Assembly: GCA_002361535.1 (NCBI GenBank)
Contig: DETG01000066.1
Coordinates: forward strand, 1-40,955
Reading direction: 5' to 3'
From: Prevotella sp. UBA3294
Lineage (GTDB): Bacteria > Bacteroidota > Bacteroidia > Bacteroidales > Bacteroidaceae
Length of the DNA: 40,955 bases
Shown: piece by piece, positions 11,388 through 40,955 of the stretch
Position numbering within the stretch: the stretch's first letter is position 1
How the letters are laid out: each line of letters begins with the position of its first letter
Program-made: the position numbers and the translations under genes
The notes under the pieces: model-generated
What the model was told of the DNA's origin: nothing
Databases searched by the model: none
Seen by the model: only the letters and a program-made list of their open reading frames with translations

Positions 11388-11417
11388 GATAAAAAAAGAA
11401 AAAGGGGAGGATTTTGA

Positions 11418-11504
11418 ATCCGCAAAATTGCGGATCACGAGAGGATACCTTACCTTGCCAGCCTGCAAAACATGATGATAGGTAAGGCTGCCTCCTTTGC
11501 AGGC
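11418..11504 (-). promoter_or_regulatory. Structured leader upstream of the reverse transcriptase
   Basis: Two inverted repeats interleave. GCCTGCAAA (11461-11469) matches TTTGCAGGC (11496-11504), and CCTTACCT (11448-11455) matches AGGTAAGG (11480-11487). In RNA this order (S1, S2, S1', S2') can form an H-type pseudoknot. A third perfect 8-bp hairpin (ATCCGCAA / TTGCGGAT, 11418-11435) lies nearer the start codon, followed by a pyrimidine-rich stretch. It could be a template or guide RNA for the RT, or a translational control element. Confidence 0.5.
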
Positions 11505-11537
11505 GCAGTCATGCTGCATCCCCTTTTTCGATGTCTC

Positions 11538-23384: not shown

Positions 23385-23405
23385 GTTGTCTTTCTTTTGC
23401 TGGCG

Positions 23406-23437
23406 CAAAGGTAAAGATAAAATTGGTATCATCCAAA
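23406..23437 (-). promoter_or_regulatory. Promoter of the threonine aldolase gene
   Basis: On the minus strand, TTTG (complement of 23434-23437) and TACCTTTG (complement of 23406-23413) are 20 bp apart, an exact match. It predicts a leader of about 15 nt. Confidence 0.75.
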
Positions 23438-23665
23438 TGTTTTATGAGGAATGTGGATTCTCGTTCCACACCCCCTAATATAATAAGGTGTAATCCATGT
23501 CCCCTCCTGATCTGTACAATGAAAAAGTGTCTGAATAACAATTAAATAGGTATTTTAGGATAAACTTGTCTTTTTTTTTGTAACCTAACAGTAACAAATC
23601 TGAATTTTGGTAAGATAAGATAAAAAATGAGCAAGAAAGTATTATATTAATTAAAAAATAACACT

Positions 23666-23673
23666 TACCTTTG
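23666..23673 (+). promoter_or_regulatory. -7 promoter box of the first susC
   Basis: TACCTTTG fits the consensus and is followed by GCA, as at the second susC. No good -33 TTTG is seen, so activation by a regulator is likely. Transcription from about 23680 gives a leader near 230 nt. The stretch 23438-23665 is AT-rich and shows no gene. Confidence 0.55.
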
Positions 23674-23776
23674 CATCGTGAAAAGACATAGCTACATAGC
23701 CTTTAAAAACTTAGAAGGCAATTGCTGGATCAGTAACTCAAAATAACTAATAGCAGAATAACTATAAACCAAAACA

Positions 23777-23803
23777 ATGAAGGTAATTAATAATACGGGA
23801 TAG
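23777..23803 (+). CDS. Leader micro-ORF MKVINNTG
   Basis: Eight codons then TAG in the susC leader. The second susC leader has MRTNNTG at the equivalent place (38919-38942). Both end in Asn-Asn-Thr-Gly-stop, both are preceded by the same 13 nt (TAACTATAAACCA), and both stop just before a GC-rich hairpin. Conservation of the reading frame, with different codons (AAT AAT ACG against AAC AAC ACC), suggests it is translated. Function in attenuation is inferred. Confidence 0.5.
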   Translation: MKVINNTG

Positions 23804-23809
23804 AGTTTC

Positions 23810-23857
23810 GTGTGCTGCTGGCAGAAAGGCTTAGCAGCACACTTATATGTGCTAAGC
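23810..23857 (+). promoter_or_regulatory. Alternative hairpins in the first susC leader
   Basis: GTGTGCTGCT (23810-23819) pairs perfectly with AGCAGCACAC (23833-23842). The second arm can instead pair, as part of 23829-23841, with TGTGCTAAGC (23848-23857) with a small bulge. The two folds exclude each other, as in an attenuator. The second susC leader keeps the same logic with different bases. Confidence 0.55.
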
Positions 23858-23911
23858 GTATTTGACGAGAGATTTTATATTTTAATTATAACCTAAGAAA
23901 AGTACTTAAGT

Positions 23912-26900
23912 ATGAATCAAAACTTTGGAAAGACAGCTTTGCTTGCTGGTGCCTGTGCAATCGCAGGATTGTTTTGGACACCGAAGGCAATGGCTGATTC
24001 TGCTGTAAAATCCGTTCAGTCGGTTCAGCAGGACAGGAAAGTGACAGGTACCGTCGTGGATGCGATGGGTCCGGTGATCGGAGCCAGCATCTTAGAGAAA
24101 GGTACTAGTAATGGTACGGTTACCGATCTTGACGGTAACTACTCTTTAAGCTTGCAGCCAGGAGCTACTTTGGTGATCAGCTACATCGGCTACAAGACTC
24201 AGGAAATCAAGGTTGGCAACAACTCCCGCATTGACGTGACTCTGGAAGAGGACAACACCTCTTTGGAGGAAGTGGTAGTGGTTGGTTACGGTGTGCAGAA
24301 GAAGAAGTTGGTGACAGGTGCCACCGTTCAGGTGAAAGGTGAGGACATCGCCAAACTGAACACCACCAATGCTTTGACTGCCATGCAGGCATCAACTCCC
24401 GGTGTGCAGATCACACAGGCATCTGCCCAGCCAGGTCAGGGCTTTAAGGTAAACATCCGTGGTGTGGGTACCATGGGTACCTCCTCTCCGTTGCTGATCA
24501 TCGACGGTATCTCAAGCGGTACTGCCGACGATGGCCTGAACGGTCTGAACCCCGCCGACATCGAAAGCATCGACGTGTTGAAGGATGCTGCATCTGCTGC
24601 CATCTACGGTGCCCGTGCTGCCAACGGTGTGATCCTCGTGACCACCAAGCAGGGCAAGGCTGGTAAGATTCAGGCTTCCTACGACGGCTATGTAGGCTGG
24701 AGCAATCCTGCCAAGCGTCCTGCCACGCTGAACGCCAATGAATATATGCAGATTATTAATGAACTGAACTTTAATACTACTGGTAACGCTGTCAAGTGGA
24801 ACTCTATCGTTCCACAGTCGGTTATCGACAAGGTGAATGCCGGATGGGAAGGCACCGACTGGTTCGAGGTCTATCGCAACAAGAATGCCATGCAGTTCAA
24901 CCACTCTTTCAGTCTGACGGGTGGTAGCGAGCGTTCCAAGTTCGCCATGGGCTTGAACTATACTTCCAACAACGGTACGTTCGGTGGTGACAAGGCTCCG
25001 CAGTACAAGCGCTACGGTGCGCGTATCAACTCCGAGCATGTGTTGCTGAAAGGCAGCAAGCACGATATCATCACCATCGGTGAGAATATCTCCTTCTGGT
25101 ATAACACCCGTAGCGGTCTCTCCGAGGGTAACGGCTACTGGAACTCTATCCAGCCGGTATATATCGCCTCTCCGCTCGTGATGCCTTACGGCGAAGACGG
25201 TTCATTGAACAGCTATGCACAGAACTCCACGGGCTATAGCGGTCAGATGTGGTCGAACCCGTTGCAGGGTCTGAATGCCGGACAGTTCAATTCAACGCAG
25301 AAGAACCGCGACTTCGGTGTCGGCGCGACCTTCTTCTGGATCATTGAGCCGATCAAGGGTCTCCGCTATCGCGGATCGTTCAACACTGGCTTCAGCTCAC
25401 ATACCGACCGCAGCTATGGTCGTCCGTTCTCTATGAACCAGAGTTCTTCTTCAGGTGCTTATTCTGTTAGCCTGAGCTCCAGCGACGGTGGCAGTTTCTC
25501 TGTGGATAACACCCTTACCTACGTTCTCCCCGTATTGGCCAAGAATGCCATCGACGTGATGATCGGTCAGTCGTTCGAGAAGACTCAGTGGGGTCAGAGC
25601 CTCTCTGTTGGTACTCAGGCTATGGAAGGTGATGAGAAGTCAATGGTTCACCAGGGTATCTACCAATGGCCTTCTAACTATGCTGCTTCACAGATCAGTT
25701 CTTTCAGCGGTGCTCCTTGGGGTGACAGCTCTTTGGCTTCCTTCTTCGGTCGTATCAACTGGAACTACGATGAGAAATACATGGCCACCTTCACCATGCG
25801 TGCCGATGGTTCTTCCAACTTCGCCCGCGGTCATCGCTGGGGTTACTTCCCCTCTGTGTCTGCAGGTTGGGTTGTTACAGGCGAGAAGTTTATGGAGTCC
25901 ACAAGAAGTTGGCTGGATTATTTCAAGATCCGTGCCAGCTGGGGACAGAACGGTAACTGTGCTATTCCTAACTTCCAGTATCTGGCCACCATCTCTTATT
26001 CTCCGACAGACTATGCCGACTATGCTTACAAGTTCGGTAGCTCGATGGCTCAGACTTTGTCACAGACAAGCTATGCTCCGGGTGCCTTCGCAGACATCAT
26101 TCCTAACGAGGACATCACTTGGGAGACCTCTGAGCAGCTGAACATCGGTTTCGATGCACGCTTCCTCAACGGTAAGCTTGGTTTGAATTTCGACTGGTAT
26201 AAGAAGACCACGAAGGACTGGCTGATCCTGGCTCCCGCTCCATTAGTACTGGGTACCAATGCTCCTTACATCAATGGTGGTGACATCGAGAACAAGGGTA
26301 TTGAGGTGGCTCTCTCCTGGAACGACCAGATTGGAAGCGACTTCCGCTATCGCGCCAACGTGAACTTTGCTACCAACAAGAACGAGGTGACTCGTATTGC
26401 CAACGAGCAGGGTATCATCAACGGTCAGGAGCATGCTCTCTTCCAGAACTCTTCTTACGCTTCCCGCGTTCAGGTGGGTCATCCTATCGCATACTTCTAC
26501 GGTATGGACTACGAGGGTATCTGGCAGAACCAGGCACAGATCGATGCAGCCCGTGCAGCAGGCAAGGCCGTGCGTGCTGATGCACAGCCTGGTGATATGA
26601 TTTGGACCGACTATGACGGTGACGGTGTGATCAACTACGACCTCGATCGTCATGAGATCGGTAACCCGCATCCTGACTTCACTCTCGGTGTAACCCTCGG
26701 CTTCGACTGGAAGGGTCTCGACTTCTCAGTAACCGGTAGCGGTCAGTTTGGTATGCAGGTGATGCAGTACTTCCGTACCGCTCAGCTCGCCAACCCGTAT
26801 GATAACTACACACAGGATATCTTCGAGCGCTGGCATGGAGAAGGCACCAGCAATACACAGCCCCGCCTCGTCCTCGCCGGTGACAACAACCAGTGGGTAT

Positions 26901-27166
26901 CTACACGCTACATGCAGGATGCCGATTTCTTCCGTATCCAGAACATCACGTTGGGTTACGACTTCAACAAGATCTGGAAGAGCAGTCCATTCCAGCAGCT
27001 GCGCCTCTATGTACAGGCTCAGAACCTCTACACCTTCACAGGCTATACCGGTGTTGACCCCGAAATCGGATCAAGCGGTGGTAAGGACTCTTGGGCACGT
27101 GGTATTGACGTTGGTCTCTATCCTACCTCACGCACCTACCTCGTTGGTGTAAATATTAAGTTCTAA
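23912..27166 (+). CDS. SusC/RagA family TonB-linked outer-membrane transporter
   Basis: A full-length SusC-type protein of 1084 residues. The signal peptide ends near AMADS (about residue 29). A carboxypeptidase-regulatory-like domain follows (about 42-118, KVTGTVVDAMGPVIGASI to RIDVTLEEDN), then the TonB box region (LEEVVVVGYG) and plug with VNIRGVGTMGTSSPLLIIDGI and the SusC hallmark DAASAAIYGARAANGVILVTTK. The barrel ends in Phe (VGVNIKF), usual for outer-membrane barrels. It imports a ligand captured with its SusD partner, encoded 34 bp downstream. The substrate is unknown; no hydrolase gene is near. A 10-bp palindrome (TACTTAAGTA, 23903-23912) overlaps the start codon. The first 200 or so bp are nearly identical to the second susC. 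Confidence 0.95.
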   Translation: MNQNFGKTALLAGACAIAGLFWTPKAMADSAVKSVQSVQQDRKVTGTVVDAMGPVIGASILEKGTSNGTVTDLDGNYSLSLQPGATLVISYIGYKTQEIKVGNNSRIDVTLEEDNTSLEEVVVVGYGVQKKKLVTGATVQVKGEDIAKLNTTNALTAMQASTPGVQITQASAQPGQGFKVNIRGVGTMGTSSPLLIIDGISSGTADDGLNGLNPADIESIDVLKDAASAAIYGARAANGVILVTTKQGKAGKIQASYDGYVGWSNPAKRPATLNANEYMQIINELNFNTTGNAVKWNSIVPQSVIDKVNAGWEGTDWFEVYRNKNAMQFNHSFSLTGGSERSKFAMGLNYTSNNGTFGGDKAPQYKRYGARINSEHVLLKGSKHDIITIGENISFWYNTRSGLSEGNGYWNSIQPVYIASPLVMPYGEDGSLNSYAQNSTGYSGQMWSNPLQGLNAGQFNSTQKNRDFGVGATFFWIIEPIKGLRYRGSFNTGFSSHTDRSYGRPFSMNQSSSSGAYSVSLSSSDGGSFSVDNTLTYVLPVLAKNAIDVMIGQSFEKTQWGQSLSVGTQAMEGDEKSMVHQGIYQWPSNYAASQISSFSGAPWGDSSLASFFGRINWNYDEKYMATFTMRADGSSNFARGHRWGYFPSVSAGWVVTGEKFMESTRSWLDYFKIRASWGQNGNCAIPNFQYLATISYSPTDYADYAYKFGSSMAQTLSQTSYAPGAFADIIPNEDITWETSEQLNIGFDARFLNGKLGLNFDWYKKTTKDWLILAPAPLVLGTNAPYINGGDIENKGIEVALSWNDQIGSDFRYRANVNFATNKNEVTRIANEQGIINGQEHALFQNSSYASRVQVGHPIAYFYGMDYEGIWQNQAQIDAARAAGKAVRADAQPGDMIWTDYDGDGVINYDLDRHEIGNPHPDFTLGVTLGFDWKGLDFSVTGSGQFGMQVMQYFRTAQLANPYDNYTQDIFERWHGEGTSNTQPRLVLAGDNNQWVSTRYMQDADFFRIQNITLGYDFNKIWKSSPFQQLRLYVQAQNLYTFTGYTGVDPEIGSSGGKDSWARGIDVGLYPTSRTYLVGVNIKF

Positions 27167-27200: not shown

Positions 27201-29051
27201 ATGAAAAAGATATTAATCATAGCCGCAGCTGCCGTGTTCGCATTGAGCTTCACCTCTTGCGAAGATCAGCTCGACTCAATCAATTATACGAAGCAGGATA
27301 CCGGAAACTTCCCTGCTACATCTGATGATGTGGTGAGCGAGTTGAACGGTGTGTATTCTGTGCTCAACGGTTTTGTTACTACTCCGTTGCAGATGCCTTA
27401 TATGGTGTGGAACTTGATGTCCGACGACTGTAACGGTGGTGGCGGTACGGGTGATACCGAGTCGCATGCCGTGGGTCACATCACCACCAATAACGAGAAT
27501 CTCTATCAGGATGCATGGAAGCATGTATATGAGGGCTTGAACCGTGCCAGTACTATCATCTACTCTATCGACAACGTGGAGTGGGCAGACAAGAGCGAGC
27601 GCGATCAGCTGCTCGGCGAGACCTTGTATATGCGTGCCTTCTATATGCTTTGGGGAACGCAGATGTTCGGTAACATCCCTGCTTACTGGCAGGCTGGATG
27701 CCCCACACCGTGCCCGCAGCAGGATGCAGAGACCGTGATTTATCCGCATATCCTGGGTGACCTCGTTCAGGCTGCTTCGCTGATGACGAAGAAGACTCAG
27801 GGCGACGGCCATGCTACCAAGTATGCCGCTGAGGCTCTCTTGGCCCGTGCCTATATGTTCTATCAGGGCTTCTATAAGAAAGCTGGTGAGTTGGCTTCTG
27901 CCAACTTGGCTCCTGTCACGGTCATCACCCTCGACGGTGAGCAGGAACTGACCAAGGACCAGGTGGTGAAAGGCTTGGAGGATGTCATCAACAATGGTGG
28001 CTACAGCTTGATTCCACACTTCCAGGAACTCTGGCAGTACACCAACGAGTTCACTGTAGAGGACTATAACTACACCAAGGGCCAGGGCTTGAAGTTTGCC
28101 GGAAACGGTAACGCCGAGCAGATCTTCCAGATCCAGTTCATGAACTGCCAGTCGTGGAACGGTACTACGGGTATGGGTTACTGCAACCAGCTGTCACTCT
28201 ATGTGGGTCTGCGTTGTGATGACGATGCCGCAGGTGGTATCAACCCCAATACTGGAAAGACCTATTTCAATGGTCGTGAGAACACCTTCCCCTTCGGACA
28301 GGGTTGGGGACAGGGTACTGTTCAGGCTACCCTCTGGGATGACTGGAGTGATGCCGACCCGCGTAAGGCTGCCTCTATCTGTGATGCTCCTAACGAGTTG
28401 GAGCACTTCGTGTTCACCACAAGTTGTACGGAGGATGCCGGTTACTATAACAAGAAACTCATGCCTGTGACAACCATGCAGGCTAACTGGGATTCCTATA
28501 CGGGTGCCGGTCCCTACACTTGGTGGGATGTGGCTGATCCGGATAACTACCAGGGTCCGAAGAATGAAAACTGTATGCAGGGATCACACTTCTGTGACAT
28601 TACGTTGATCCGTCTGGCCGACGTGATGCTGATGCACTCAGAACTGACAGGTACTGCCGACCAGATGAATAAGGTTCGTGCCCGTGCCGGTCTCCCTGCT
28701 ACTACATACTCTTGGCAGAACATCAAGAACGAGCGCCGCTTCGAGTTGGCTTTCGAGGGTGTTCGCTTCAACGACCTGCGTCGCTGGTCGGGAATCAATG
28801 GTGGTGAGAGTTGCGAGGCTGCTGTAGCACTGGAGAGACAAAACGGATCAAAGGTGAACTACTGCGGCACATGGACTAAGATGAAACATGGAACCTCTTC
28901 TTGGGCTAAGCGTTATGCTGAGACGGATGGCTTCCTGCAGATTCCTACTTCTCAGATTGAACTCGCAGGTGATGAGGAAGTGCTGAAGCAGAACCCAGGC
29001 TGGGGTAGCAATGTTGCTGATGCCCAGATGTCGGGTACACCGGTTTATTAA
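27201..29051 (+). CDS. SusD/RagB family nutrient-binding lipoprotein
   Basis: Surface lipoprotein of 616 residues that forms the lid on the SusC barrel. The signal (MKKILIIAAAAVFALSFTSC) ends in a lipobox Cys near residue 20. An N-terminal SusD-like part (about 20-230) contains TPR-type helices (GETLYMRAFYMLWGTQMFGNIP, AEALLARAYMFYQGFYKKAGE). The C-terminal part has IKNERRFELAFEGVRFNDLRRW, the recognisable RagB/SusD signature, and LQIPTSQIELAG. It is 34 bp behind susC and 27 bp ahead of a surface lipoprotein gene, all in one operon. The ligand cannot be deduced from sequence. Confidence 0.95.
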   Translation: MKKILIIAAAAVFALSFTSCEDQLDSINYTKQDTGNFPATSDDVVSELNGVYSVLNGFVTTPLQMPYMVWNLMSDDCNGGGGTGDTESHAVGHITTNNENLYQDAWKHVYEGLNRASTIIYSIDNVEWADKSERDQLLGETLYMRAFYMLWGTQMFGNIPAYWQAGCPTPCPQQDAETVIYPHILGDLVQAASLMTKKTQGDGHATKYAAEALLARAYMFYQGFYKKAGELASANLAPVTVITLDGEQELTKDQVVKGLEDVINNGGYSLIPHFQELWQYTNEFTVEDYNYTKGQGLKFAGNGNAEQIFQIQFMNCQSWNGTTGMGYCNQLSLYVGLRCDDDAAGGINPNTGKTYFNGRENTFPFGQGWGQGTVQATLWDDWSDADPRKAASICDAPNELEHFVFTTSCTEDAGYYNKKLMPVTTMQANWDSYTGAGPYTWWDVADPDNYQGPKNENCMQGSHFCDITLIRLADVMLMHSELTGTADQMNKVRARAGLPATTYSWQNIKNERRFELAFEGVRFNDLRRWSGINGGESCEAAVALERQNGSKVNYCGTWTKMKHGTSSWAKRYAETDGFLQIPTSQIELAGDEEVLKQNPGWGSNVADAQMSGTPVY

Positions 29052-31314: not shown

Positions 31315-32802
31315 ATGAGGAAAGTGTTTGGACGATATGGCAAAATAGGTCTGTCGGTACTCTTGGGTATCGGCATTTTCCTGTTTTGGTATATCGGATA
31401 CCCCCACGCTTTGTCATATCAGGAACAATACCAGCTTTTCTTGTGGACAGGCGATTATTTCTGGGAACGTGTCAGATTGCCTGGTGGCTTGGCCGACTGG
31501 CTCGGTGAGTTCATCGTGCAGTTTTTCTATGTAGAGTGGTTGGGGGCCTTGCTGTTAGCGGTCTTGTTTGTTGTCATCCAACGTCTCACCGCCCGTCTTC
31601 TCCCCCCATCGTGCTACCTGCTGAGCCTTCTCCCCGTAGCCTTTTTATGGTGGCTCATGGGCGACATCAACGTCTTGGTATCCTTTCCCGTATCTGTTGC
31701 ACTCTCCTTGGCATTGGCCTGCATCCGCCTGCCTCGGTCTTTCAGTTGGATAGATGTCGCCATCGTCCCTCTTGCCTATTGGCTCATAGGACCGGCCGTC
31801 TGGCTGTATGTACTGCTTCGTGTCCTCCAGCTCGGATGGAAACATCTTTGGTCGGCAGGATGGCTCTTGTCGGTATTGCTGGCAGCCTATCACTGGGTGT
31901 TGCCGCAGTGGCCCCTGCAGCAGGTGATGACGGGTCTTTCGTATTACCGTATTCCTTTGATGTACCCACAACTCTCGGGTTATGAGAAGGAGACGTACGA
32001 GCTGATCCGATTGGATTATTTAGTGCGGAACGAGCGATGGGATGAAGTAGTGAAACGAGCAAGGGAGATAACGGTTCGTACGCCTTTCTGGTCAAACTGC
32101 GTGAACCTGGCACTGGCAGAGAAACGGCTCCTTGCTGATAACATGTTCGATTTCTATCAGAGTGGGGAAGATGCATTGATCATGTCCCGGACAAGAGACC
32201 TCACTTCCATGCTGCCCTCTGCCGAGGCTTTCTGGCGACTGGGGCTTGTCAATTCTGCACAGCGTTATATGTTCGATACACAGGAATCGATCCTCAACGG
32301 ACGAAAGAGCGGAAGGTGCACGAAACGCATTGCCGAGTGTATGATCGTGAATGGTCATTACGCCCCGGCACGGAAGCAACTCGGACTGTTGAAGAAGTCC
32401 CTGTTCTACAGGAACTGGGCCGAAGAGGCCGAGACCTTGTTGGGAGACGAGACAACGATCAATGCGCATCCTGTCTATGGCAAGTTGCGCAAGTTGAGAT
32501 ACAAAGACGATTTCCTTTACAACTATGAGGAGATTGACAAGATGTTTGGATTACTGTTCATCAATAATCCCGAGAACAAGATGGCCCTTGACTACCTTAT
32601 GGGTGAACTGCTCCTGAAAGGAAACATCCAGAGCTTTCAGCAGTATATGGGATGGGTACAGCAGTATGGTGGCTACCGCCAGATGCCCCTCGGCTATCAG
32701 GATGCCATGCGGTGCATCCAGATGCAAGGCAATGTGCCGGGCTCGCCGTATGCCGGCTATGTGCAGCGGATGATGCGGGAAGGAGTGAGGAGTGAAGAGT
32801 GA
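31315..32802 (+). CDS. DUF6057-like polytopic membrane protein, copy 1
   Basis: A 495-residue protein. The N-terminal half has about five to seven hydrophobic segments (first IGLSVLLGIGIFLFWYIGYP). It includes a hallmark shared with copy 2: Y-Q-E-Q-[YF]-Q-L-F-L-[WF]-x-G-[DE]-Y, then PGG-[LV]-A. From about residue 220 it becomes a soluble, helical, TPR-like region (YDYLVRNERWDEVVKRA-like stretch, RLGLVNSAQRYMFDTQES, NGHYAPARKQLGLLKKSLFYRNWAEEAE). I recall this family as DUF6057, of unknown function. Its stop codon and last residues (GVRSEE) fall within a GAAGAGT heptamer array. A CxxCH propeller gene follows; the same pair is repeated downstream. Confidence 0.8.
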   Translation: MRKVFGRYGKIGLSVLLGIGIFLFWYIGYPHALSYQEQYQLFLWTGDYFWERVRLPGGLADWLGEFIVQFFYVEWLGALLLAVLFVVIQRLTARLLPPSCYLLSLLPVAFLWWLMGDINVLVSFPVSVALSLALACIRLPRSFSWIDVAIVPLAYWLIGPAVWLYVLLRVLQLGWKHLWSAGWLLSVLLAAYHWVLPQWPLQQVMTGLSYYRIPLMYPQLSGYEKETYELIRLDYLVRNERWDEVVKRAREITVRTPFWSNCVNLALAEKRLLADNMFDFYQSGEDALIMSRTRDLTSMLPSAEAFWRLGLVNSAQRYMFDTQESILNGRKSGRCTKRIAECMIVNGHYAPARKQLGLLKKSLFYRNWAEEAETLLGDETTINAHPVYGKLRKLRYKDDFLYNYEEIDKMFGLLFINNPENKMALDYLMGELLLKGNIQSFQQYMGWVQQYGGYRQMPLGYQDAMRCIQMQGNVPGSPYAGYVQRMMREGVRSEE

Positions 32803-33058
32803 AGAGTGAAGAGTGAGGAGTGAAGAGTGAAGAATGAAGAGTGAAGAGTGAAGAGTGAAGAATGAAGAATGGAGAGTGAAGAATGAAGGAAGGTAATATA
32901 TATAATAAGGTGTCGAAGACTTGTAGGCGTTACAAGACATGGCTGATGGCAGCGGTAGTTGTCATCATGGTCGTTGTTTGCGGCAGCCGGTTTATCCCTT
33001 TCCACTCTTCACTCCTCACTTTTCATTCTTCACTCTTCACTCTTCACTCTTCACTTTC
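32779..33058. repeat. Inverted heptamer arrays around a gene start
   Basis: About 110 bp of GAAGAGT-type 7-bp units (32779-32890) and about 57 bp of the reverse-complement units (33002-33058) face each other. The left array holds the stop of the DUF6057 gene and the ATG of the next gene. The right array is read in frame inside that gene as Phe/Leu-His-Ser-Ser-Leu repeats. In RNA the arms could pair and enclose the start region. Confidence 0.8.
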
Positions 33059-34475
33059 CAAGACAGTAGATGTGCTCCCCGAGATCTATCCTGACTATAT
33101 CGGAGTGACGATCCCTGCAGGAATAGCTCCGCTCGACTTCAATATGGCTGATGAGTCAATTGGCAGCATGGCAGTGGAGGCAAGAGGAAGCAAGGGTGGC
33201 GAGATCCATGCACAGGGCGAGTGGGCTGATTTTGATGTTGACGACTGGCATGAGCTGACCATGCAGAACAGAGGAGGAAAGATCACCATGACAGTCTATG
33301 CCAAGAAAGACGGGGAGTGGGTGCAGTATAAAGATTTCGATATCTATGTGAGTGAATATTCCCTTGACGACTGGGGACTGACCTACCGGCGCATCAAGCC
33401 TGGATATGAGGTGGGTGGTGACATCGGCATCTATCAGCGGGATCTTCACACCTTCTCTGAATATGCTATCCTTACGGAAACATTGCTCCCTGGACGATGC
33501 TTCAACTGTCATACCCAGAACCGTACCTATCCGAACAGAATCACCTTGCAGATCCGTGGTGAGGGCGGTGGCACGATGATCCAGAAAGACGGACGACAAT
33601 ACTGGTTAGAGACCAAGACCGATTCCACCAAGGCAGCTGGATCCTATTCCTATTGGCACCCACAGGGTGACTATTGCGCCATGGCTGTCAACTCCGTCCA
33701 TCAGAGTTTCTTCGTGGGGAAAGGTCAGCGTATCGAGGTGTATCACCGCTTCAGTGATGTGGAGGTGCTGGATACCCGTTCGAACGAACTGATCCTGTCA
33801 CCCCTGTTGCGCACAGCCGACCTGGAGATCTTCCCAGCCTTCTCGCATGATGGGAAATGGCTCTACTACAGCAGTTCCAAACCTTGCCGGGTGCCGGCAG
33901 AGTATGAGAAAGTGAAATGCTCTCTGTGTCGCATCCCCTTCGATGCTAAGAGTGGACGGTTCGGGGAGTCGGTAGATACGTTGCTCAACGGACCGGCAAC
34001 GGACCGCAGCTATGTGTTGGCTCGACCGTCATACGATGGTCGGTGGCTGATGTATTGTGTGGCCAGCAGAGGAAACTTCCCGGTATGCGAGAATGATGCC
34101 GACCTGTGTCTGATGGATCTGCGTTCCGGAGAAACACGCTTGCTCGATGAGGTGAACAGCGACCAGAGTGAGAGTTTCCATAACTGGAGCGAGAACAGCA
34201 AGTGGTTCGTGTTTACCAGTAAACGGGAGAACGGAATGTATGCACAGCTCTTCCTGGCCAGCATCGGTGAGAACGGGCAGGTGACGAAGCCCTTCCTTTT
34301 ACCGCAGCGTAACCCTAAGAAGTTCTATCATGAGATGATGGACTCCTATAACGTGCCTGATTTCACCAAGACGAAGGTGAAGGTTGATACGCACGAGGCT
34401 TACAGACAGGTGTTCGGAGGACAAAGGGAGAAGGTGAAGATAAAGATAAAAAGGGAAGCCCACCCCGACCCTTGA
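32883..34475 (+). CDS. Exported CxxCH beta-propeller (PD40/TolB-like) protein, copy 1
   Basis: A 530-residue protein. A hydrophobic N-terminal segment (about 20-38, MAAVVVIMVVVC) looks like a lipoprotein signal. Next comes an odd Ser/Leu/His repeat (about 41-59) encoded by a heptamer array and absent from copy 2. The mature part begins LPEIYPDYIGVTIPAGIAPL, the start of a domain shared with copy 2. GRCFNCHTQN carries a single C-x-x-C-H heme c-binding motif (Cys206, Cys209, His210). Beta-propeller repeats follow (FPAFSHDGKWLYYSSSKP, ARPSYDGRWLMYC, NWSENSKWFVFTSKRENGMYAQLFL). The C-terminal REAHPDP is encoded by an intergenic-type repeat. It is probably periplasmic or surface exposed; the function is unknown. 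Confidence 0.82.
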   Translation: MKEGNIYNKVSKTCRRYKTWLMAAVVVIMVVVCGSRFIPFHSSLLTFHSSLFTLHSSLSKTVDVLPEIYPDYIGVTIPAGIAPLDFNMADESIGSMAVEARGSKGGEIHAQGEWADFDVDDWHELTMQNRGGKITMTVYAKKDGEWVQYKDFDIYVSEYSLDDWGLTYRRIKPGYEVGGDIGIYQRDLHTFSEYAILTETLLPGRCFNCHTQNRTYPNRITLQIRGEGGGTMIQKDGRQYWLETKTDSTKAAGSYSYWHPQGDYCAMAVNSVHQSFFVGKGQRIEVYHRFSDVEVLDTRSNELILSPLLRTADLEIFPAFSHDGKWLYYSSSKPCRVPAEYEKVKCSLCRIPFDAKSGRFGESVDTLLNGPATDRSYVLARPSYDGRWLMYCVASRGNFPVCENDADLCLMDLRSGETRLLDEVNSDQSESFHNWSENSKWFVFTSKRENGMYAQLFLASIGENGQVTKPFLLPQRNPKKFYHEMMDSYNVPDFTKTKVKVDTHEAYRQVFGGQREKVKIKIKREAHPDP

Positions 34476-34504
34476 AGCCCACCCCGACCCTCCCAAAGGG
34501 AGGG
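34455..34504. repeat. CCCACCCCGACCC repeat with hairpin at a gene end
   Basis: An 18-bp unit (GAAGCCCACCCCGACCCT) occurs twice, at 34455-34472 and 34474-34491. A perfect hairpin follows (CCCTCCC-aaa-GGGAGGG, 34488-34504). The first unit encodes the last residues of the propeller protein, and its stop lies at the junction. Confidence 0.8.
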
Positions 34505-34525
34505 AGAAAGAACAGGTGATTGGTA

Positions 34526-34633
34526 ATTCGTCAAATTCGTAGTGTAAGAAGAAACCGATTCGTCAAATTCGTAGAGAAAGAAGTAGCAGATTCGTTAAAT
34601 TCGTCTAATTCGTAGCGTAAGAAGAAACCGATT
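34526..34633 (+). repeat. 35-bp direct repeats before the DUF4369 gene
   Basis: Copies starting ATTCGTCAAATTCGTAG at 34526 and 34558 and ATTCGTCTAATTCGTAG at 34599 each run about 35 bp. The first and third also share GTAAGAAGAAACCGATT. They fill most of the 193-bp gap; no promoter match is obvious. Confidence 0.75.
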
Positions 34634-34668
34634 TGCTCAATATGTAAAATGAATAACAAGATATAGAA

Positions 34669-35334
34669 ATGAAAAAGATGCTAACATGCTTGATGACGGT
34701 GGCAGTCGTAGGACTGTTCTTCGGTTGTCAGAAAACAAATGATGGAAAGTGTATCGTTGAAGGCGTGGTAAATGGTGAACAGTACGAGGGGAAACGGGTG
34801 TTCCTTGTGCCGTTAACGGGTCCGGCTACTGCCGAGACCGTCGATTCTATGGAAATAACCAATGGTAAGTTCCACTTCGAACCAGATTCCTTGCAGATGT
34901 ACAAGGTCTTACTTGACTACCACTACCGGTTAGGATTGGAGACGGTACTCTTGGTGGGAGAACCGGGCACGATCAAGGTGGTACTCGACAGCGTGAGTCA
35001 TGCGACGGGTACACCGCAGAACGATTCCTTGGATCATTGGAAAACCCTCACCGAGATACATAATCACCAGATGCTCCTGATGGGCAAGACTATCCAGAAT
35101 CTGACGGGAAAGGGTGACACGGTGCAGGCCGCCTCAATGAAACAGCGTGCCGACAGCTTCCATTTAGTGTATAAGAACAGCACACGTGCCTTAGCAGAGA
35201 ATTTGAAGAAAGGACCGCTCCATGAATTCCTGAAAGGACTCTATCCCCTTACCTACAAACGGAAATATCCCGATGGACGAATCGTCTTGATGAATGCGGA
35301 TACCAATGAGGAGATAGAGGAAGTAAAGAACTGA
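34669..35334 (+). CDS. DUF4369-like lipoprotein
   Basis: A 221-residue lipoprotein whose signal MKKMLTCLMTVAVVGLFFGC ends in a lipobox Cys at residue 20. The mature N-terminal part (KCIVEGVVNGEQYEGKRVFLVPLTGPATAETVDSMEITNGKFHFE) is the DUF4369 beta-sandwich pattern, often fused in Bacteroidetes to a thioredoxin-like TlpA domain. Here the rest is helical and Lys-rich (about 120-221), with no C-x-x-C, so the redox domain is missing. It sits between the two membrane-propeller pairs. An association with heme c maturation or redox is a guess from context only. The stop lies in a short array of 8-bp TGAAG units that also holds the next start. Confidence 0.75.
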   Translation: MKKMLTCLMTVAVVGLFFGCQKTNDGKCIVEGVVNGEQYEGKRVFLVPLTGPATAETVDSMEITNGKFHFEPDSLQMYKVLLDYHYRLGLETVLLVGEPGTIKVVLDSVSHATGTPQNDSLDHWKTLTEIHNHQMLLMGKTIQNLTGKGDTVQAASMKQRADSFHLVYKNSTRALAENLKKGPLHEFLKGLYPLTYKRKYPDGRIVLMNADTNEEIEEVKN

Positions 35335-35354
35335 AGATTTGAAGGGTTGAAGAA

Positions 35355-37091
35355 TTGAAGGACTCAAAGGTGAAGATCAAACATTTGCTATATAAACATG
35401 CCGAATGGTTGCTGACACTGGCATTCGGTGTGGCGGTATTCCTGTTCTGGCGATACCGTTATCCTTTTGCGCTCACCTATCAAGAGCAGTTCCAGCTGTT
35501 CCTGTTCGATGGTGAATACCTGATGGAACGACTGAGAGAGCCGGGGGGCGTGGCGAGGTATGTCGCGGAGTTCCTCGTGCAGTTCTATAACCATGTCACT
35601 TTGGGTGCCGTGATCTTAGCTTTGCTCCTCATGTTGGTGCAACAACTGACTTGGTCGTTGATGAAGTCTTGCTCTCATACCTCACCTCTCACCTCTCATT
35701 ATGCCTTCAGCTTCATTCCTTCCGTCATGCTGTGGTACTCCTTGGGTGATGAGAGTGTGCTGCTGACGTATGTCGTAGCATTGGTGATGGCTCTGGGTAT
35801 GATGGTAGTGTGGACGAAAAAGATGAAGGGTGGCAGGATCGTTCAGGGGGTGGCGGCTTTGGTTGTGATCCCCATCGCCTATTGGCTTACCGGCCCGATG
35901 GTATTGCTGGTAGCATTATGGGTCTTTCCGCTTTCGATCATCTATGCTTTAGCCCTGATATTGCTGAGTGCACACTTCCTGCCGTTCCCCACGATGAGGG
36001 TGATGTGTGGCATCAGCTACTACCGTTTCCCTGTCACACTGCCTTACCTGCTGATGGTGATCCCCGTGGTGACCTATGTGATTGTCCGATTCGCTCATAG
36101 GATACCAAAGACGAAGTCGTGGGTTACGGTTGCGGAAGTTGTGGTGCTGATCGGTCTTGTCGGATTCGTTGACAAGGGCTTTAATGCCAAGAAATATGAA
36201 CTGTTAGAATATGATTACTTGGTTCGGCTCAACGACTGGAGAAGTATCATTGCCAAAGCGGAAAAACATGCGCCCGATCTGCCGATGAGCGTGGGGGCTA
36301 CAAACCTGGCACTGGCTATGACCAATCAGTTAGGTGAACGTGCCTTTGACTTCTTCCAGCGAGGAAGGGAAGGACTGCTGCCCCGTTTTGAAAGGAACTT
36401 CACGACGGCACAGCTCACGGGGGAGATCTATTTTCACCTGGGACTGATCAATACAGCCCAGCGCTTTGCTTTTGAGTCGATGGAGGCGTTGCCCAACTAC
36501 AATAAGAGTGCACGGTCGGTGAAACGACTGGCAGAGACCAACCTGATCAACGGACAGTATGAAGTGGCAAGGAAGTACCTGAAGATGTTACAGAAAACGA
36601 TTTTCTACCGTCCGTGGGCTCAGCGCATGATGGCACTGCTCGGCGATGAGAAAGCGATTGATGAACATCCGCTCTACGGCTGGTTGCGAAAGGCAAGGAT
36701 CCAAGACGATTTCTTGTTCAGCGAGGATGAACTAGATAAGATTTGCGGACAGCTCTTCATGCATGACGAGCAGAACAAGATGGCTGTGCAGTACTTGCTG
36801 TTGGCACCGCTGCTCGACAAAGACATCCAGAAGTTTATGTCGTTTGCGGAGGTGGTGCAGAGCACAACCAACTATAACCCCCGTGCTTGTCAGGAGGCCA
36901 TAGCCTTTGCTTTTATGCAACGGCGTCAGCAACCCCCACAAGGAGCCGTCAGTCCGATGATCCTGGAACGGATGAATGAGTTTGCACGTGTCTATTCTGG
37001 TGACAAAAACTCTCCAGAGTTGATGCGGTTCAAAAATACGGTATGGTATTATTTAACGGTTGGGAATCATTTAGCTAAGAGAGAAGAATGA
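35355..37091 (+). CDS. DUF6057-like polytopic membrane protein, copy 2
   Basis: A 578-residue homologue of the gene at 31315, with the same layout: N-terminal membrane segments (LLTLAFGVAVFLFWRYRYPF first), the Y-Q-E-Q-F-Q-L-F-L-F-D-G-E-Y-L hallmark, and a TPR-like helical half (YDYLVRLNDWRSIIAKAEKHA, FHLGLINTAQRFAFESMEAL, NGQYEVARKYLKMLQKTIFYRPWAQRM). It is longer than copy 1 mainly in the membrane part and at the C-terminus. A heptamer-like CACCTCT stretch (35672-35703) is read in frame as a Ser/Thr/His loop. The TTG at 35355 is used as start; a GTG at 35370 is also possible. It overlaps the next gene by 4 bp (ATGA), implying coupled translation. Confidence 0.8.
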   Translation: MKDSKVKIKHLLYKHAEWLLTLAFGVAVFLFWRYRYPFALTYQEQFQLFLFDGEYLMERLREPGGVARYVAEFLVQFYNHVTLGAVILALLLMLVQQLTWSLMKSCSHTSPLTSHYAFSFIPSVMLWYSLGDESVLLTYVVALVMALGMMVVWTKKMKGGRIVQGVAALVVIPIAYWLTGPMVLLVALWVFPLSIIYALALILLSAHFLPFPTMRVMCGISYYRFPVTLPYLLMVIPVVTYVIVRFAHRIPKTKSWVTVAEVVVLIGLVGFVDKGFNAKKYELLEYDYLVRLNDWRSIIAKAEKHAPDLPMSVGATNLALAMTNQLGERAFDFFQRGREGLLPRFERNFTTAQLTGEIYFHLGLINTAQRFAFESMEALPNYNKSARSVKRLAETNLINGQYEVARKYLKMLQKTIFYRPWAQRMMALLGDEKAIDEHPLYGWLRKARIQDDFLFSEDELDKICGQLFMHDEQNKMAVQYLLLAPLLDKDIQKFMSFAEVVQSTTNYNPRACQEAIAFAFMQRRQQPPQGAVSPMILERMNEFARVYSGDKNSPELMRFKNTVWYYLTVGNHLAKREE

Positions 37092-38617
37092 AGAAGGAAA
37101 GAATTCGAGTAGGCGCATTAGCGGGGAGAATACTTGCTACCGCCATGGTGACTGTTGTGGGTTGTTGGCTGTTGTGGTCTTGTAGCTCCAGACCAGAGAA
37201 TCCTGTGCCGACAGACCAGCTGCCGAAGATCTATCCCGACTATGTGGGAGTGACAATACCCGTTGGGATTGCCCCACTGAACTTCAACCTCATGGGTGAT
37301 GGAATAGATAAGGTGGATGTCGTGGTCAGAGGTTCGAAAGGCGGAGAGATCCATGCACAGGGCAGCTATGCCGACTTTGATGTGGACGATTGGCACTTGC
37401 TGACGGAGCAGAACAAGGGCGGACAGTTGTCTTTTACCGTTTGTGCAAAGAAGGACGGGCAATGGATACAATATAAGGATTTCACCGTTCGTATCAGTCC
37501 GTATGCCCTCGATGAGTGGGGACTTACCTACCGTCGTATTGCTCCTGGCTATGAGGTATATAGTAAGATGGGACTTTATCAACGTGATCTCTCAAACTTC
37601 GAGGAATATGCCATCATCGAGAATACTCAGGTACCTGGAATGTGTGTGAACTGCCATTCCAGTGCCCAGACCGATCCCTCTAAGTTTGTTTTCCATATCC
37701 GTGGTGAACATGGGGCTACCTTGTTCCAGATAGATGGGAAACGAGAACTTCTCAAAGCGAAGAACGACCTTCTGGGTGGTTCTATGGTGTATCCATATTG
37801 GCATCCCTCAGGCGAGTATTGCGCCTTCTCCACCAACCAGACACGTCAGGGCTTCCATATCGCCCACCAGAATCGTATAGAGGTGTTCGACCTCTCTTCT
37901 GATATCTTGGTATATCATCCTGCAAGTCATGAGGTCCTTACCGACTCTCTGATCAGTACAAAGGACTGGTCGGAGAATACACCGGTGTTCTCTCCAGATG
38001 GGAAGACGCTCTATTTCATGACCTGTAAGCAACAGGAATATCCTACGCATTATCAGGATGAGCAATACAACCTCTGCAAGATCGACTTCGATCCAAACAC
38101 GGGAAAGTTTGGTGAGAAGGTGGATACAATCTTCAATGCTGCGAAAATGGGAAAGAGTCTGACATGGCCTCGTCCGTCATACGATGGGAAGTATATCTTG
38201 TTCACCCTGATGGATTATGGCTATTTCTCTATCTGGCATCAGGAGAGCGACCAATGGCTGCTTGACTTGCGGACGGGAGAGGCCCGCTCTATAACCGAGA
38301 TAAACAGCAAACGTGCCGACAGCTTTCATAACTGGAACGTGAACTCTCACTGGATCGTATTCACCAGTAGAAGGGGAGACGGCCTCTATAGTCTTCTCTA
38401 TTTATCCAGTATCGACGATCAGGGGCGCTTTACCAAGCCTTTCCTGTTACCACAGCATAATCCCATGAAATACTACGACTCTTCGCTGTATTCATTCAAT
38501 ACACCTGATTTCACGAAAACCAAGGTGACGTTCGATGCCTATCATGCGGGAAAGGAGATCCTTTCGGAAGTCCGTGTGGAAACCAAAGTGAAGAATGCAG
38601 CGAAGAAAAGCGAGTAG
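37088..38617 (+). CDS. Exported CxxCH beta-propeller (PD40/TolB-like) protein, copy 2
   Basis: A 509-residue homologue of the protein at 32883. Its signal (ILATAMVTVVGCWLLWSC) ends in a plausible lipobox Cys near residue 33. LPKIYPDYVGVTIPVGIAPLNFN opens the shared domain, followed by GMCVNCHSSAQ with C-x-x-C-H (Cys186, Cys189, His190). Propeller-type repeats follow (TPVFSPDGKTLYFMTCKQ, WPRPSYDGKYILFTLMD, NWNVNSHWIVFTSRRGDGLYSLLYL). It lacks the Ser/Leu/His repeat of copy 1, so that insert is dispensable. Translation is coupled to the upstream DUF6057-like gene, which supports a working pair. The family resembles propeller proteins with a single heme site; the role is unknown. Confidence 0.85.
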   Translation: MKKERIRVGALAGRILATAMVTVVGCWLLWSCSSRPENPVPTDQLPKIYPDYVGVTIPVGIAPLNFNLMGDGIDKVDVVVRGSKGGEIHAQGSYADFDVDDWHLLTEQNKGGQLSFTVCAKKDGQWIQYKDFTVRISPYALDEWGLTYRRIAPGYEVYSKMGLYQRDLSNFEEYAIIENTQVPGMCVNCHSSAQTDPSKFVFHIRGEHGATLFQIDGKRELLKAKNDLLGGSMVYPYWHPSGEYCAFSTNQTRQGFHIAHQNRIEVFDLSSDILVYHPASHEVLTDSLISTKDWSENTPVFSPDGKTLYFMTCKQQEYPTHYQDEQYNLCKIDFDPNTGKFGEKVDTIFNAAKMGKSLTWPRPSYDGKYILFTLMDYGYFSIWHQESDQWLLDLRTGEARSITEINSKRADSFHNWNVNSHWIVFTSRRGDGLYSLLYLSSIDDQGRFTKPFLLPQHNPMKYYDSSLYSFNTPDFTKTKVTFDAYHAGKEILSEVRVETKVKNAAKKSE

Positions 38618-38797: not shown

Positions 38798-38828
38798 GTT
38801 GTTAATTAAATAAAATCGTTTATCTTTG
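38798..38828 (+). promoter_or_regulatory. Promoter of the second susC
   Basis: TTG at 38798-38800 and TATCTTTG at 38821-38828 are 20 bp apart. The start near 38835 gives a leader of about 230 nt, the same as for the first susC. The stretch 38618-38797 is AT-rich with no gene seen. Confidence 0.65.
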
Positions 38829-38918
38829 CAAACCAGAATGTCTAAGTAGTTTTGCAAATCGTTTTTATCCTCTTAAGGAAGAACGCGCTTAGAGGAGTAA
38901 CTATAAACCATAATCTTT

Positions 38919-38942
38919 ATGAGAACAAACAACACCGGATAG
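38919..38942 (+). CDS. Leader micro-ORF MRTNNTG
   Basis: Seven codons then TAG in the leader of the second susC, matching the micro-ORF at 23777-23803 in its Asn-Asn-Thr-Gly-stop end, its upstream TAACTATAAACCA element and its position just before the hairpin. Too short to support on its own; the case rests on the paired conservation. Confidence 0.5.
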   Translation: MRTNNTG

Positions 38943-38949
38943 ATTACAC

Positions 38950-39001
38950 ATGCTGCGAGTCAAGCGACTTGGCAGCATACCTTTGTTTGCGTTTAGTATG
39001 C
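38950..39001 (+). promoter_or_regulatory. Alternative hairpins in the second susC leader
   Basis: ATGCTGC (38950-38956) pairs with GCAGCAT (38972-38978), with further inner pairing. The downstream arm continues as GCATAC (38975-38980), which can pair instead with GTATGC (38996-39001). The order and mutual exclusion match the first susC leader, but the bases differ, which is covariation-like support. Confidence 0.55.
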
Positions 39002-39063
39002 GAATAATACTTGAAACATAGAATCATTTACTCATTTCAATAACCAAAGAAAAGTACTTAAGT

Positions 39064-40743
39064 ATGAATCAAAACTTTAGAAAGACAGCGCTGCTATTTG
39101 GTGCCTGTGCAATCGCAGGATTGTTCTGGACACCGAAGGCAATGGCTGACTCTGCTGTGAATACCGTTCAGTCGGTTCAGCAGGACAGGAAAGTGACAGG
39201 TACCGTCGTGGATGCGATGGGTCCGGTGATCGGAGCCAGTGTCTTGGAGAAAGGTACTAGTAATGGTACGGTTACCGATTTGTCAGGTAACTACTCTTTG
39301 AGCGTGAAGCCAGGTGCTACCCTGGTTGTCAGCTACGTTGGCTTCAAGACCCAGGAAATCCGTGTGGGCAACAACAGCCGTATTGACGTTACTCTGGAAG
39401 AAGACAACACCAACCTCGATGAGGTTGTGGTCATCGGTTACGGTGTGCAGAAGAAAAAGCTGATCACCGGTGCTACCGTTCAGGTAAAGGGTGATGACAT
39501 TGCCAAGTTGAACACCACCAACGCACTCGAAGCTATGCAGTCAAGCACTCCTGGTGTACAGATCACCCAGAGTTCTAGTCAGCCTGGTAAGGGATATAAG
39601 GTTTATATCCGTGGTATCGGTACTACTGGTAACTCCGCACCTCTATATGTAATCGATGGTGTGGCAGGTGGAAACCTTGACGGTATTAACCCTGCTGATA
39701 TAGAGAGCATCGACATTTTGAAGGATGCTGCTTCCGCTGCCATCTACGGTGCCCGTGCAGCCAATGGTGTGATCCTCGTGACAACCAGGCAGGGTAAAGT
39801 TGGTAAAATTGAACTTACCTACAATGGCGCTTTCGGCTGGTCTAACGCCTATAAGCGTCCTCAGCTCCTCGATGCTAAGCAGTATATGACAATCATTGAT
39901 GAGTACACCTTCAATACTTCTGGTCAGAAGATGGACTGGGCTGGTTATGTTCCCGCGGACATTCTTAATAAGGTGGCTAACGGTTGGGAAGGCACAGACT
40001 GGTGGAAGGCTTTCGAGAATAAGAATGCTCTTCAGCAGAACCATTCTGTAACCCTGACTGGTGGTACTGACCGTTCTAAGTTCGCCATGTCTTACACCTA
40101 TACTGGTAACGACGGTATCATGGGTGCTGAAAAGGCTTCTTACTACAAGCGTCACACCATCCGTGTCAACAGCGACCATGTGCTCTTAAAGGCCAAAGAT
40201 TTCGATGCCATTACCATCGGTGAGAATATCTCTATTGGTTATAACAGAAGCCACGACCTGGCAGAGGACGGTATGTACTGGAGCTATATCCATAGCCTGC
40301 TTCAGACTTGTCCGCTCGTGCCACAGTATGCTGACAATGGTGATATCTATTATTATCAGGATTTTGACGGTACTGTTAAATATGGTAGTGGCTGGAATGC
40401 TTCTTTGTTCAGCAACCCATGGGAGAACCTCGCAAAGGGTGGTTTCAACTCGATGGCAGAGAGCCGCAGCATCAATACAAGTGCAACTGCTTTCCTTACC
40501 ATCCAGCCTATCAAGGGACTGAGGCTCCGTTCCCAGTTCAACTATAACTGGGGTTCAGGCGCATATCGCAACTATGGTGAGCCACGTTCTTCTGGTTATG
40601 GAAATGCCACATCTGTTGTTTATAGTGTAAGCCAGAACGCCTGGCTGAATTCTTCATGGTCTGTTGAGAATACCCTTACCTACGATCTTCCTATTTTGAA
40701 TTATTACTGTCCGCTAAACATTGAGTCATCCGACAAAAATTAG
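39064..40743 (+). pseudogene. Second SusC gene, truncated by an IS element
   Basis: Encodes the first 546 or so residues of a SusC protein: signal peptide, carboxypeptidase-like domain, TonB box region (LDEVVVIGYG), plug with VIDGVAGGNLDGINPADIE and DAASAAIYGARAANGVILVTTR, and part of the barrel. It follows the first SusC closely up to VENTLTYDLPIL, then switches to NYYCPLNIESSDKN and a stop, where the left end of an IS begins. The barrel is therefore incomplete (559 of about 1080 residues) and should not be functional, unless the remainder lies beyond the IS and the IS excises. Its 5' 200 or so bp are nearly identical to the first susC. Confidence 0.88.
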
Positions 40744-40775
40744 GGCTGTCACCACTCAAAGGTGTCAGCCCTTTT
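40743..40775 (+). terminator. Hairpin terminator at the IS left end
   Basis: GGGCTGTCACC (40743-40753) and GGTGTCAGCCC (40761-40771) form a stem with one mismatch, followed by TTTT. It lies before the transposase promoter and would stop transcription entering from outside, a common IS safeguard. Confidence 0.7.
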
Positions 40776-40778
40776 GGT

Positions 40779-40786
40779 TATCTTTG
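40779..40786 (+). promoter_or_regulatory. -7 promoter box of the transposase gene
   Basis: TATCTTTG followed by GCA fits TAnnTTTG, 28 bp before the ATG at 40815. The -33 element would lie in the preceding hairpin and is not clear. Confidence 0.5.
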
Positions 40787-40814
40787 CAGTCGCCAAACAT
40801 AAACAAACATAACC

Positions 40815-40955
40815 ATGGGCAAAAGTACACATTTTTTCGGACAGCCGGTGTATGGTCAGATGATAAAATCACTCGACCGTGATAGAATTGTTGGAATGAG
40901 CCGCAAAAACGGCGGTGAGAAGTACGTGAAGAGTTTCAACGGGTTCACTCATCTG
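40815..40955 (+). CDS. IS4-family transposase, DUF4372-type N-terminus (partial)
   Basis: The first 47 codons of a transposase, open to the end of the window. MGKSTHFFGQPVYGQMIKSL and the following Arg/Lys-rich helix (SRKNGGEKYVKSFNGFTHL) match the DUF4372 N-terminal domain of IS4-family transposases common in Bacteroidetes. The DDE catalytic part lies outside. It interrupts the second susC. Confidence 0.85.
   Translation, partial: MGKSTHFFGQPVYGQMIKSLDRDRIVGMSRKNGGEKYVKSFNGFTHL

Follow-up and report, generated by a model that had tools for sequence, protein, structure and literature searches.

A candidate leader-peptide cassette upstream of susC genes in Prevotella

Comparison of susC leaders in Prevotella reveals that the ending of a very short encoded peptide, the place of its open reading frame (ORF) 132 to 157 nucleotides ahead of susC, and a stable hairpin near its stop codon are kept together. 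With moderate confidence, we propose that these elements constitute a cis-acting leader-peptide cassette, in which a ribosome located at the stop codon of the micro-ORF would compete with formation of the stable hairpin. SusC/SusD systems are the glycan uptake route of these bacteria and, to our knowledge, the controls described for them so far act at transcription start or via antisense RNA. Among the matches listed in a search of the open-access literature, none reports a susC leader peptide in its title or the start of its abstract. The conserved leader peptide and hairpin point to an undescribed way of controlling susC. If true, there would be a translation-dependent control layer common to different loci, offering a testable link of growth state with nutrient uptake, and it would be exerted by a very short regulatory peptide with few constrained residues.

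The two susC leaders of the window

The stretch of DNA analyzed (the window) comprises 40,955 nucleotides from a 2.7 Mb Prevotella genome (G000, contig C44) and carries two susC genes with related leaders (Table 1). The first leader is about 230 nucleotides long if counted from the putative -7 box at 23666, which matches a consensus (TAnnTTTG) that we take to be the -7 type promoter motif of Bacteroidales. This putative length agrees with the original prediction, whose 8-codon ORF, MKVINNTG, is confirmed, as is its perfect 10-bp hairpin within 7 nucleotides of the stop codon; the 5' arm begins 6 nucleotides past the stop. When the 251 nucleotides from 23680 to 23930 are folded by themselves, they are weakly above chance (z -1.72, with 12 of 200 shuffles folding as well). 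Judged against other leaders, the micro-ORF and hairpin in the window do exceed chance. The protein encoded behind this leader is matched best among solved structures by the SusC homologues 8aa4 and 5t3r, and more poorly by RagA. The palindrome at the start of the gene, or near variants of it, is common to several susC start regions of the susC group.

Table 1. Features of the two susC leaders and adjoining genes in the window
Feature	Position	Strand	Basis or remark
Leader of susC 1: promoter -7 box TACCTTTG, Bacteroidales type, putative leader start	23666..23673	+	Sole TAnnTTTG in 23400-23911
Leader of susC 1: micro-ORF MKVINNTG-stop, ATG...TAG	23777..23803	+	ORF translation; member of the [ND][ST]x-stop family
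Leader of susC 1: hairpin 1, perfect, 10 bp	23810..23842	+	Arms GTGTGCTGCT (23810-23819) and AGCAGCACAC (23833-23842)
Leader of susC 1: hairpin 2, weak, 6 bp	23845..23861	+	Overlaps the originally predicted alternative arm, 23848-23857
Perfect palindrome TACTTAAGTA running into the susC ATG	23903..23912	+	Sequence
susC 1, 1084 aa, gene behind the leader	23912..27166	+	TIGR04056; PF13715, PF07715
susD partner of susC 1	27201..29051	+	PF07980, PF14322
Leader of susC 2: promoter -7 box TATCTTTG	38821..38828	+	Two more TAnnTTTG at 38847 and 38978
Leader of susC 2: micro-ORF MRTNNTG-stop	38919..38942	+	Sequence
Leader of susC 2: hairpin 1, 7 nt past the stop	38950..38978	+	Matches the hairpin of the susC 1 leader
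Leader of susC 2: hairpin 2, 10 bp	38983..39007	+	Sequence and fold
susC 2, ends after 559 aa beside the start of a DUF4372 ORF	39064..40743	+	Sequence; domain match

The two micro-ORFs of the window encode identical last residues (NNTG), with a different third base in three of those four codons, and the peptide of the second leader (MRTNNTG) recurs in a leader from another genome (G262). The two SusC proteins share 72-92% identity per 50-residue block over their first 250 amino acids and 22-58% thereafter, a mosaic that looks as if promoter, leader and N-terminus had been exchanged as one module. Among the 25 plug-domain matches listed for the genome of the window, the cassette was seen upstream of the window's two susC genes only, in an inspection by eye of 230 nucleotides ahead of mechanically assigned starts. 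At the end of the second susC gene (40743-40955), the start of a sequence encoding a DUF4372 domain adjoins the coding region, and a near-perfect inverted repeat lies between them by eye. This domain is often found in transposases, and an IS insertion has probably truncated the second gene.

A micro-ORF family in Prevotella susC leaders

Additional leaders were collected from 249 genomes of the genus by using a 100-residue SusC N-terminal query, and upstream DNA was taken from the better rows among the matches listed. The query is the N-terminus of a SusC protein whose own leader carries the motif described below. Leaders from named contigs were added, as were L055 and L177, both of which had been found by motif search. 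The 14 closest named matches to the SusC N-terminus group (L179-L192) are all from Prevotella or Prevotellaceae, and many bear RUG names, which presumably denote rumen assemblies. Several entries were left out before counting, namely L090 (matched from residue 7 onward), L089 and L091 (start unassigned), L181 (no start) and the duplicates L179, L186 and L189. The omitted L089 locus (G242) carries MTTNDSS-stop, and its omission lowered the motif count. The resulting 108 leaders, again from the better rows among the matches listed, include 59 long leaders, defined by a TAnnTTTG at least 135 nucleotides upstream of susC, 43 short leaders, which cannot hold the cassette, and 6 without a recognised promoter. 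At least four of the 65 long or promoter-less leaders (L093, L107, L113 and L165) have a closer promoter and would count as short.

The micro-ORF is conserved in related susC leaders, as evident by the fact that an ATG ORF of 2-14 codons ending in [N/D]-[S/T]-x-stop is present in 28 of the 65 long or promoter-less leaders (among the matches listed), whereas dinucleotide shuffles of these leaders yield 1.28 such cases on average and never more than 5 over 200 rounds. These leaders are related and the counts are not independent; removal of L055, L177 and the window's two leaves the motif in 24 of 61. Its start lies at -157 to -132 relative to the susC ATG in 27 of the 28, and the exception (L106, at -70) was treated as a chance occurrence and removed, such that 27 leaders were used for all later analyses. 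The peptides include MNQNNSS, MNQTNSS, MDQNNSS, MNLNNSS, MNKNNSS, MNLNDSS, MTQNNST and MKQNNSS, and also MTQDNSS, MNQNNTS, MKDNTG, MIDNTV and MTNNTE.

Among these 27 micro-ORFs, the third base of the Asn/Asp codon is C in 14 and T in 13, that of the Ser/Thr codon is A in 6, C in 6, G in 8 and T in 7, and the stop codon is TAA in 19, TAG in 4 and TGA in 4. Third-position diversity of the conserved codons is near maximal (0.52 at the two-fold site and 0.77 at the four-fold site). Because the third bases and stop codons are free to vary, it seems that the peptide rather than a string of DNA is being kept; third positions would not be expected to vary so freely in a binding site conserved as DNA or RNA. 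The rows were picked by a regular expression, and the invariance of N and S/T is therefore partly by construction; this caveat does not apply to the excess over shuffles, the location of the micro-ORF or the variable third bases. The comparison identifies a short ORF under coding constraint, as is characteristic of leader peptides, along with conserved residues beside the stop codon, as in stop-arrest leaders, the latter again partly a product of how the search was built. The 20 nucleotides upstream of the micro-ORF are 53% A, compared to 35% for other ATGs in the same upstream regions (n=129) and 45% for susC.

The motif is absent from 37 of the 65 leaders. The possibility that every long susC leader carries some micro-ORF was rejected, since other micro-ORFs occur at the usual place in 16 of the 38 leaders outside the 27, with no excess over the shuffle mean of 13.65. 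This result also leaves unsupported the two-residue ORFs (MP-stop, MA-stop) and the basic ORFs (MRKRE-stop, MTIRKKYY-stop) of a CCATTGC class.

The exact pattern MxxNN[ST][ST]-stop has 16 matches in the 249 genus genomes, seven in susC leaders and nine elsewhere, the latter number being close to the 12 matches of a reversed control; two of these seven leaders were recognised from the leader collection, and the pattern is narrow and misses relatives with other peptides. The same pattern has six matches in 301 genomes representing 30 genera of the family, of which one is a susC leader, from the same genus (the reversed control, unmatched in composition, gave 23). A pattern for the NNTG ending yields four matches in 398 genus genomes, two of them in the window, one in G262 and one out of frame, compared to four in the control.

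Folding, pairing and competing explanations

The 75 nucleotides past the stop codon of the micro-ORF fold better than shuffled sequences, with a mean z of -2.31 and 23 of the 27 leaders below -1, compared to a mean z of -0.01 for the 75 nucleotides ahead of the micro-ORF. In the other four leaders this threshold is missed, and one of them (L086) reaches +1.0. Pairing between the arms of hairpin 1 has a mean z of -2.77, and 23 of 27 leaders fall below -1.65. In minimum free energy folds, the first paired base lies 0-13 nucleotides past the stop in all 27 leaders; in the window's first leader, a weak outer helix begins 1 nucleotide past the stop and the 10-bp stem begins at 6 nucleotides.

The hairpin sequences split into several classes. 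Among the three closest leaders, one pair of hairpin 1 reads G-C, A-U and U-A, which constitutes a compensatory change in an alignment read by eye. A second hairpin class (7 leaders) has double changes in 3 of 11 pairs and a covariation of 0.303 versus 0.185 in shuffles, with 0 of 500 as high. The pair-count measure for this class is weaker, as 29 of 500 shuffles reach three double-change pairs, and the structure was derived from the same alignment. A covariance model was built from six leaders of this class with the last micro-ORF codons included, and its E-values are rough. The model matches 12 places in 11 of the 249 genomes, nine of which are susC leaders with a micro-ORF. Five of these nine are outside the training rows of the model (G242, G131, G171, G199 and G248, the last already in the collection), and in G199 the susC start is visible and the locus ends soon after. 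The remaining three matches (E 0.029-0.045) are not susC leaders. Rfam models gave no match up to E 0.5 for 15 loci with leaders, and in the window their single match at the gathering score, RT-5, lies outside the leader. This RT-5 RNA (11405-11508, minus strand, 80 bits) overlaps the 5' end of a 451-aa minus-strand ORF.

Folded leaders are not confined to those with the micro-ORF. Among the 38 leaders outside the 27, 18 fold below z -1 (mean -0.99, compared to -0.40 for a control stretch). One class of eight leaders (L102, L104, L106, L110, L118, L122, L124 and L134) shares an element, CCATTGCGGG...GGCTTGGC(G/A)TGG, followed by a second hairpin. A conserved CCATTGCGGG...GCTTGGC hairpin in this class exhibits double changes in 2 of 16 pairs; leaders of this class lack an N-[S/T]-x micro-ORF where it would normally lie, and two of its loci (L102 and L122) have no Rfam match. 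A further leader class, with a conserved A/U-rich hairpin around ACCTTATTATATATAATAGG, was seen by eye in L131, L132, L133, L140, L142, L146, L148 and others. The excess folding outside the 27 and the hairpin of the eight-leader class would fit a structured 5' untranslated region that is bound by a protein or a small RNA, or that stabilises the transcript, and to which the micro-ORF is irrelevant. We consider this explanation unlikely, as it does not account for residues that stay while third positions and the stop codon vary, nor for the A-rich region at the micro-ORF start.

A somewhat less probable explanation is that the cassette is a passenger, wherein promoter, leader and signal peptide move between susC genes as one recombining module and the micro-ORF persists solely through recent shared ancestry. 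The mosaic of the window's SusC proteins is consistent with a leader and N-terminus that travel together, which could preserve the cassette in the absence of any regulatory role, and genes with SusC-type domains but a different N-terminus stand behind the cassette in G073 and G131. However, recent descent is difficult to reconcile with near-maximal third-position diversity in codons whose residues stay, or with hairpins that have diverged into classes and yet still fold in most leaders.

Reinitiation or ribosome standby is slightly more doubtful again. In such an arrangement, the micro-ORF would recruit ribosomes, the hairpins would shorten the path and translation would restart at susC. The distance between micro-ORF and susC is fixed and both start regions are A-rich, but the 108-128 nucleotides from the stop codon to susC is a long span for this process, and the conserved residues would be left unexplained.

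The original prediction also held that the 3' arm of hairpin 1 can pair instead with 23848-23857, giving two mutually exclusive hairpins. The letters are indeed complementary in the first leader (TGTGCTAAG at 23848-23856 and the 3' arm region), and there the alternative duplex beats shuffles (z -3.2, p about 0.01). However, when the 3' arm was paired with real or shuffled downstream sequence in all 27 leaders, alternative pairing was at chance (mean z -0.09), with p<=0.05 in two of 27, including the window's first leader. The two closest leaders that share the hairpin give z +0.67 (the window's second susC) and +0.28 (G262). In the first leader, the alternative hairpin is predicted at -8.1 kcal/mol and the main hairpin at -21.6 kcal/mol. 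Read by eye, the three closest leaders had seemed to favor a switch of this type, which was rejected after the formal pairing tests.

A broader test of 17 pairings between leader segments in the 27 leaders likewise reveals that the arms of hairpin 1 alone stand out, with the other 16 pairings having mean z values of -0.35 to +0.42. This test cut the window's first leader at the weak outer helix, and for that leader the alternative-pairing test is the better one. The lowest of the 16 values, -0.35 (standard error 0.17), comes from the stretch before the micro-ORF paired with the hairpin 5' arm, and the micro-ORF itself pairs with this arm at z < -1.65 in 4 of 27 leaders. We regard both as noise, yet they are the sole remaining hints of a competing structure. 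A consensus scan of 23400-24000 picked out one terminator-like site, which lies inside susC (23952-23967), and none in the leader. Between micro-ORF and susC, 13 of the 27 leaders have no run of four or more T residues, and the longest run is 5. The susC start region does not pair above chance with any of five leader segments in the 27 leaders (mean z -0.28 to +0.30).

Of the attenuator originally predicted, the leader peptide and hairpin are conserved, whereas the switching arms and terminator are not borne out; a classical attenuator, in which the 3' arm switches to 23848-23857 and one of the structures terminates transcription, is very improbable despite the duplex in the first leader, given an alternative pairing at chance across leaders, a negative terminator scan of the first leader, inconsistent U-tracts and a far stabler hairpin 1.

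A ribosome at the stop codon as a possible switch

For the leader-peptide cassette that we favor, the switch would be a ribosome at the stop codon versus a formed hairpin, rather than two rival RNA hairpins. Presumably the micro-ORF is translated; a ribosome that terminates or pauses on its stop codon would cover the base of the hairpin 5' arm, such that ribosome and hairpin would be mutually exclusive. Given the size of the ribosome footprint, and because the first paired base is never far from the stop, this overlap is expected in nearly all leaders. The state of the hairpin, or the dwell time of the ribosome, might then set the amount or survival of susC mRNA. The most plausible routes would be Rho-dependent premature termination between the micro-ORF and susC, or protection of the mRNA. 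We favor an effect on mRNA amount, given that the leader segments tested pair with the susC start only at chance level and that the scan for terminators in the first leader was negative. Conservation of the last residues suggests release at the micro-ORF stop as the sensed step, and the signal is probably translation or amino-acid state in general.

These elements invite comparison with several known systems. The transcription attenuators of the trp and his type also have a short leader ORF with a hairpin directly after it, upstream of the regulated gene, whereas the Prevotella cassette precedes an uptake gene rather than amino-acid biosynthesis genes and has neither a terminator-like site (in the window) nor a conserved alternative pairing. 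If the peptide holds control codons for a product of the operon, those for Asn, Ser and Thr would be the candidates. The leaders tnaC and speFL arrest ribosomes at the stop codon and gate Rho. Like these, the Prevotella peptides have conserved residues beside the stop, where a ribosome would cover the next RNA element, but they are 5-11 amino acids long and make use of all three stop codons. Translational attenuation is exemplified by the erm leaders and by tetQ of Bacteroides, the latter also from Bacteroidales. Their 5' leaders likewise combine a micro-ORF with hairpins, but in Prevotella the leader segments tested show no above-chance pairing with the start region of susC.

Related observations have been published for other members of the phylum. 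Clues for leader-peptide attenuation before amino-acid biosynthesis operons were reported in Flavobacterium psychrophilum (PMC9723704). In B. thetaiotaomicron, long 5' UTRs carry sORFs 'reminiscent of leader peptides', for example at BT_4401 (PMC7366714), and the portions of that report available to us describe no susC leader-peptide family. The same work describes antisense RNAs of the DonS type, which likewise exert RNA control of susC homologues and differ in being antisense RNAs rather than leader peptides (PMC7366714). Also in B. thetaiotaomicron, a colonization gene is controlled by the roc mRNA leader irrespective of the promoter (PMC10294740), and the accessible description of roc mentions no micro-ORF.

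The genes behind the cassette differ among loci. In an operon comparison of six chosen loci, with susD scanned in the window only, three kinds of operon were encountered. Genes with DUF6057, PD40 and DUF4369 domains follow in the window and in G220, DUF6057 and PD40 follow in G153, and DUF6057 follows in G262, where the contig ends. Two GH2-type proteins are encoded behind the cassette in G020, and a GH26 together with a surface glycan-binding domain (SGBP-B) in G217. Because the cassette stands ahead of differing operon types, the signal is probably general rather than one glycan; sensing of a single substrate was considered and appears unlikely on the same grounds. A bolder proposal, which is tentative and which we rate as less likely than the cassette itself and as more probably wrong than right, is that SusC uptake systems of Prevotella are under the control of a portable module, a hitherto undescribed family of very short peptides acting at the stop codon, M-x(1-7)-[N/D]-[S/T]-x-stop. 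Here the ribosome at termination would itself be the switch, competing with a single hairpin and not with an anti-hairpin, and it would inform different uptake loci of the state of translation or of amino acids in general.

Two observations on gene arrangement accompany these loci. In the window, genes with DUF6057, PD40 and DUF4369 domains are repeated behind susCD (31315-38617). In one G131 locus (L285), what looks like an old susC start (ATGAACATTTAA, M-N-I-stop) follows the cassette and another SusC-type gene comes next, an arrangement that would result if the cassette had been fused to a new gene.
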